Assembly: GCA_013343275.1 (NCBI GenBank)
Contig: CP046106.1
Location: 248,001-312,000 of the forward strand
DNA: 64,000 bases
Direction of reading: 5' to 3'
From: Candidatus Nanohaloarchaea archaeon
GTDB lineage: Archaea > Nanohalarchaeota > Nanosalinia > Nanosalinales > Nanosalinaceae
A program made the position numbers and the translations under genes. Below, one piece after another: positions 42,910 through 43,140 of the stretch. The notes under the pieces are model-generated. The model made no database searches. It was not told where the DNA came from and saw only the letters and a list, made by a program, of their open reading frames with translations. Within the stretch, counting starts at the first letter, position 1; every line of letters begins with the position of its first letter.

Positions 42910-43140
42910 TGGGGCCGGCAGGACTTGAACTTGCAACCTTCCGCTATCTCCGGAACTTCTGGAAGTTCCATCACCACGGAGCATTCCAAGGAATGCACCT
43001 CAAGATTTAATCATCGGCCATAAGGCCTCATTCCTCCAGATCCGTAACAGAACAGAGATGGTTCAGTGATCCATCAGGTACTGTCGACCTGCTACGGGAG
43101 TCGCTGGAGGCGGACGCTCTGCCAATTGAGCTACGACCCC
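42910..43140 (-). tRNA. trnW: tRNA-Trp (CCA) with 158-nt intron
   Basis: 5' exon 43140-43104 (positions 1-37) and 3' exon 42945-42910 (38-73), no encoded CCA. Acceptor GGGGTCG pairs with CGGCCCC; D stem GCTC/GAGC; anticodon stem TCCGC/GCGGA; loop CTCCAG+A gives anticodon CCA. T loop TTCAAGT; the T stem GCAAG/CCTGC has one A-C mismatch. The intron lies after position 37, the usual archaeal site. CTCC of the loop can pair with GGAG at the intron 3' end, as in the central helix of a bulge-helix-bulge splice motif. Confidence 0.9.
42946..43103 (-). ncRNA. tRNA-Trp intron, candidate box C/D methylation guide
   Basis: The intron contains GGATCTGGAGGAATGAGG. Its CTGGAGG is complementary to positions 31-37 (CCTCCAG). 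Taking ATGA right after it as a (variant) D' box, the fifth base upstream pairs with C34, the residue methylated in haloarchaeal tRNA-Trp by its own intron. C-box-like GTGATGG, CTGATGG and CGATGAT also occur in the intron. Box matches are imperfect. Confidence 0.55.

Follow-up and report, generated by a model that had tools for sequence, protein, structure and literature searches.

Box C/D ribonucleoproteins methylate RNA at the fifth-base position from box D (PMC7089733). Guides within the intron of tRNA-Trp are known from Pyrococcus and Haloferax, and in all from at least 29 archaea (PMC2584109, PMC7994747). The intron in Haloferax volcanii and other haloarchaea is a dual guide, for C34 and U39. 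Pyrococcus has sR50, from the tRNA-Trp intron, and the stand-alone sR49, which acts on tRNA-Met; the wobble C34 targets of these two RNAs are the same as those considered here (PMC7994747, PMC2584109). Here we analyse the tRNA-Trp(CCA) gene of Candidatus Nanohaloarchaea archaeon, which lies on the minus strand of a 64,000-nucleotide (nt) stretch of contig CP046106.1 (positions 248,001 to 312,000; the window). We suggest, with a probability of roughly 0.8, that the 158-nt intron of this gene acts as a single-guide box C/D RNA, recruiting fibrillarin for 2'-O-methylation of C34 in the very tRNA that contains the intron. An earlier note on this DNA had raised this idea, and it is now supported: we infer the methylation from conservation, the exact register of the guide, a covarying kink-turn (K-turn), the presence of box C/D protein genes and the predicted fold.

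The intron resembles its haloarchaeal counterparts in its position (37/38), its bulge-helix-bulge (BHB) splice site and its selection of C34 by the fifth-base rule. The layout, however, is different. Haloarchaeal introns have two guides and two C/D motifs, the C34 guide (TGGAG-NN-CCGA) lies about 75 nt from the anticodon loop and the BHB is the predicted ground state. Here there is one guide (TGGAGG-N-AUGA) and one K-turn in the order D box, hairpin, C box, usually located just 3' of the anticodon loop, and pairing is predicted to occur in cis. The earlier note's reading of position 39 as G rather than U holds, in all 14 tRNA-Trp genes of the family, and no second guide for this position is seen in the 55-nt relatives. 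Because the second-guide feature is lacking, we regard the window intron as a variant and not as a member of the haloarchaeal type.

The features of the gene, in window coordinates, are:

42910-43140, minus strand: tRNA-Trp(CCA) gene, found by ARAGORN with introns allowed
43104-43140, minus strand: 5' exon
42946-43103, minus strand: intron of 158 nt, between G37 and A38
42910-42945, minus strand: 3' exon, A73 included
43107, minus strand: C34, putative 2'-O-methylation target, opposite the fifth base upstream of the D box
43042-43098, minus strand: CCCGUA...UUACGG, a closed 5' domain inserted in the intron (predicted fold), missing from short relatives on comparison of intron lengths
43033-43039, minus strand: guide CUGGAGG, antisense to positions 31-37
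43032, minus strand: unconstrained spacer base (guide position 1), A, G or T among relatives, for which pairing with position 30 is not required
43028-43031, minus strand: D box AUGA
43016-43027, minus strand: hairpin GGCC-UUAU-GGCC, the C-stem of the K-turn, directly adjoining the D box, with standard pairs in 12/12 aligned relatives and changes on both sides
43008-43014, minus strand: C box AUGAUUA; the single L1 base at 43015 completes the 3-nt bulge
42981-42996, minus strand: accessory hairpin GCAUUCC-UU-GGAAUGC (sequence and predicted fold), missing from short introns
42952-42969, minus strand: accessory hairpin GGAACUUCCAGAAGUUCC, a copy of a repeat that also occurs within other tRNA introns and next to tRNA genes
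42948-42951, minus strand: GGAG, 3' strand of the splicing BHB helix, which pairs with C32-C35 in competition with the guide

Conservation of the guide and its K-turn

The tRNA-Trp gene was missed by default ARAGORN and Rfam scans of the window and scores only 16 bits in a genome-wide tRNA search. Nevertheless, its recovery by ARAGORN with introns and its homologues in 13 other genomes of the same family show that the gene and its intron are real, as the earlier note had claimed. The pairing of CTGGAGG with positions 31-37, which places C34 opposite the fifth base before AUGA, is confirmed. The tRNA-Trp introns of the 14 genomes range from 55 to 194 nt and are widely divergent; all contain TGGAGG and GGAG. 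An in-register guide of at least 6 bp is present in 14/14 of them (0.19 expected from dinucleotide shuffles) and a guide with a flush K-turn in 13/14 (0.008 expected from the same shuffles). When the window intron itself was shuffled, these two outcomes occurred in 2.8% and 0.2% of cases respectively.

The guide is in register in all 31 parsed tRNA-Trp introns, comprising the 14 of the family and 17 from 12 families. The latter, like 27 tRNA-Met introns from outside the order, came from patterns that require the guide and are therefore not independent proof of it; the unbiased sets are the 14 tRNA-Trp introns and 21 tRNA-Met introns. Position 31 and guide base 2 were left free in the pattern searches and they covary. 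The pair is C-G in 14 and G-C in 16 tRNA-Trp introns, G-C in 26 and A-U in 21 tRNA-Met introns, and A-U in 30 haloarchaeal tRNA-Trp introns. Pairing of guide base 1 is not required. A search for tRNA-Trp in other families of the order recovered none, which we do not take as absence. The phylum pattern GAGNATGA...GATGATTA was one base short after GAG and its matches were not used. An exon pattern that demanded the longer D loop did not pick up the window gene.

In a standard K-turn, tandem G-A and A-G pairs come after a 3-nt bulge; box C/D K-turns of archaea also have U-U and G-C pairs (PMC5689011). The earlier note had taken the boxes of the intron to be degenerate. This proved wrong: AUGA is conserved and covaries with AUGAUUA, and together with the flush hairpin they match a box C/D K-turn whose closing pair is A-U instead of the usual C-G. 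The stem directly abuts the D box, and a single base lies between the stem and the C box, which gives a 3-nt bulge; the tandem G-A/A-G, the U-U and the closing pair are likewise found by sequence pattern and pairing. The closing pair is A-U in 11 of the 12 aligned cores and C-G in the other. Where C1 of the D box is replaced by A, G6 of the C box is replaced by U, and the relative with CCGA has AUGACGA, so that C-G is regained. Across the 12 cores every cell (100%) of the closing pair and of the three stem pairs adjoining the D box holds a standard pair, and there are 13 double changes. Covariation scores 0.852, compared with 0.315 in shuffled cores, and all slid versions score lower. Judged by their sequence, the boxes are a proper variant K-turn and not degenerate.

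Pairing between the first base of the D box and the sixth of the C box is strong in tRNA-Trp introns (22/27 Watson-Crick, 10.9 expected). In tRNA-Met it is weak (20/39, 14.4 expected, with 7 C-C) and we therefore do not claim it for all introns. There is a possible second K-turn in the window intron, UUGA...GUGAUGG, but it is weak: its geometry is imperfect by eye, its bulge is too long and its boxes are not kept in relatives. The short tRNA-Trp relatives have room for one C/D motif only. Because the 55-nt introns hardly exceed the core, the 5' domain and the two 3' hairpins of the window intron are additions, that is, accessory decoration.

One of these hairpins belongs to a repeat, TGAT[G/C][A/G]AACTTYCAGAAGTT (window 42952-42973), of which there are 14 copies in both orientations in 7 of the 28 genomes of the phylum in our collection, all of which come from one order. 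The copies (loci L005, L027, L028, L029, L016, L026, L383, L384, L387 and L388) lie in introns of tRNA-Trp, Met, Arg and Thr and near other tRNA genes, and their outer pair is G-C, A-T or C-G. No copy was found in a reversed control. Separately, a module TTTGAGAA-stem-loop-TTCGA recurs in tRNA introns of the order (L054, tRNA-Leu CAG; L026, L005, L019, L095, L090 and L097) and is K-turn-like, with a UUU bulge and tandem G-A.

The genome, a single contig of 915,886 bases, encodes the proteins that a box C/D guide would need. The genes for fibrillarin (540427-541038) and Nop5 (541089-541709) are adjacent on the minus strand, and L7Ae is encoded at 517581-517856 on the plus strand. No guide family of Rfam was matched, the only matches at E<=1 being to tRNA. 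The A-C mismatch noticed earlier in the T stem of tRNA-Trp (T arm, window 42911-42934) is present and common to two relatives, genomes G001 and G004. Three other loci of the genome (L080, L081 and L082) are tRNA-like genes with probable introns at non-canonical positions, apparently misread by ARAGORN. The proteins of the window are acidic (median pI 4.7).

The same arrangement in elongator tRNA-Met

A 2008 study stated that the guide for C34 of tRNA-Met is always outside the intron, and in Pyrococcus it is a separate RNA (PMC2584109, PMC7994747). In this order, in contrast, it sits inside the tRNA-Met intron. The elongator tRNA-Met of the same genome (497424-497566, minus strand; locus L083:324-468) has a 70-nt intron with the guide UUUAUGAGC, the spacer A, AUGA, a hairpin and AUGAUUA, and its own C34 is opposite the fifth base. 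Among the tRNA-Met introns of the order that were found by exon similarity and parsed, the guide is present in 21/21 (0.35 expected) and the guide with a K-turn in 19/21 (0.008 expected). The 27 tRNA-Met introns from beyond the order, which represent 17 families, came from a pattern search of 394 genomes. In total the guide is in register in 48/48 parsed tRNA-Met introns (that of this genome and 47 others), some of which are only 37 nt long. Putative guides occur in the tRNA-Met introns of at least 21 families, of which 4 belong to this order and 17 lie elsewhere.

In four of these introns (L089, L095, L096 and L098) the loop of the D-C hairpin is complementary to the sequence after the C box (TTTTTTCTGGA with TCCAGAAAAAA in L089), suggesting a pseudoknot. 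Two tRNA-Met genes with an intronic guide, L282 and L284, apparently contain additional sequence in the T loop, which may be a second intron.

Guides in tRNA-Met introns are not entirely without precedent, because a 66-nt C/D-like RNA from the intron of elongator tRNA-Met has been reported in Nanoarchaeum equitans, where it was sequenced and is stable and abundant. This was a single case with a potential, unspecified target, and the accessible portion of the report does not describe guide register, covariation or spread (PMC3491384). Phrase searches of openly readable papers found no further report of a guide in a tRNA-Met intron. Within that literature, four aspects appear to be new: the explicit targeting of the tRNA's own C34, the spread across families, the design with a single K-turn and the prediction of cis pairing.

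Pairing in cis and the alternatives

In the predicted fold of the window precursor C34 pairs with the guide with a probability of 0.96 and with the BHB strand with a probability of 0.03. The guide fold exceeds 0.5 in 29/31 tRNA-Trp and 38/48 tRNA-Met precursors but in 0/36 haloarchaeal ones, of which 31/36 have the BHB fold above 0.5. In most compact introns 3-15 nt separate base 37 from the guide, compared with about 75 nt in haloarchaea. The separation is 64-65 nt in the window intron, where the 5' domain is predicted to close into a stem that draws the two together. Taken together, the predicted guide fold and the short distance from target to guide favour methylation in cis, and on these models we judge methylation before splicing to be somewhat the likelier course. 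The methylation-ready and splice-ready folds are mutually exclusive because the guide and the BHB strand both use positions 32-35.

We propose the following sequence of events. L7Ae would bind the K-turn (AUGA, hairpin, AUGAUUA), and Nop5 and fibrillarin would then join. CUGGAGG would pair with positions 31-37 and bring C34 to the fifth-base position relative to box D, most likely in cis and ahead of splicing. The precursor would then refold, with positions 32-35 pairing with GGAG at the 3' end of the intron to form the BHB for splicing.

Several points count against a self-methylating single guide. The permutation tests take no account of shared ancestry, and for this reason we give the variety of pair types across many families more weight than the test numbers. 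The guide duplex spans just 6-9 bp, and K-turns and proteins were not represented in the folding predictions. Two C/D motifs are present in known archaeal C/D guides, and the second is described as essential (PMC8413462); the shortest introns here can hold only one. Lastly, the intron guide of Haloferax has been demonstrated to act in trans (PMC4090602).

This last point also raises an alternative that we think less probable but take seriously, namely that the same guide works in trans only. C34 of another tRNA-Trp would then be methylated by the intron after its excision, probably as a circle, or by that of a second precursor. A circular tRNA-Trp intron was present in all organisms re-analysed (PMC12558985), and the extra pair U-A38 of the window guide can form only with spliced tRNA. 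This pair is not conserved, however, and the close spacing in most relatives, together with cis pairing as the predicted ground state, sets these introns apart from those of haloarchaea. The gap in the window is longer, yet it is closed by a stem.

It is unlikely that the element is a folding device and not a guide, in which the anticodon hairpin masks the splice site and binding of L7Ae to the K-turn uncovers it, the intron thereby timing splicing. The same anticodon bases do pair with either the guide or the BHB strand, as such a device would have it. It would, however, have no need to keep C34 at precisely this five-base spacing from the D box in both tRNAs or to leave the base beside the D box unpaired, and archaeal tRNA-Trp is known to carry 2'-O-methylated C34 (PMC7668247). 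A chance match within an ordinary intron is hardly credible, for although a 6-bp in-register match arises in about 3% of shuffled window introns, the guide with its K-turn far exceeds expectation in both tRNAs, guide and target covary and conservation already refutes it.

Beyond the window, we put forward more tentatively, at slightly less than even odds, that tRNA-Met and tRNA-Trp introns act in many archaeal families as minimal methylation switches working in cis. Each unspliced tRNA would lay its anticodon on a neighbouring guide next to a single K-turn, methylate its own C34 and then refold into the form ready for splicing; splicing would be timed by modification and one intron of 37-60 nt would encode both. 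A guide role for these introns would offer a reason why archaea retain them in precisely tRNA-Trp and tRNA-Met, as each of these uses C34 to read one codon and the methyl mark would come from the intron. Such a role would extend the only well-established intron-encoded modification guide, that of tRNA-Trp, to tRNA-Met, counter to the 2008 statement. Natural one-K-turn guides as short as 37 nt would also provide material for asking whether two C/D motifs are needed and whether such guides act in cis or in trans.
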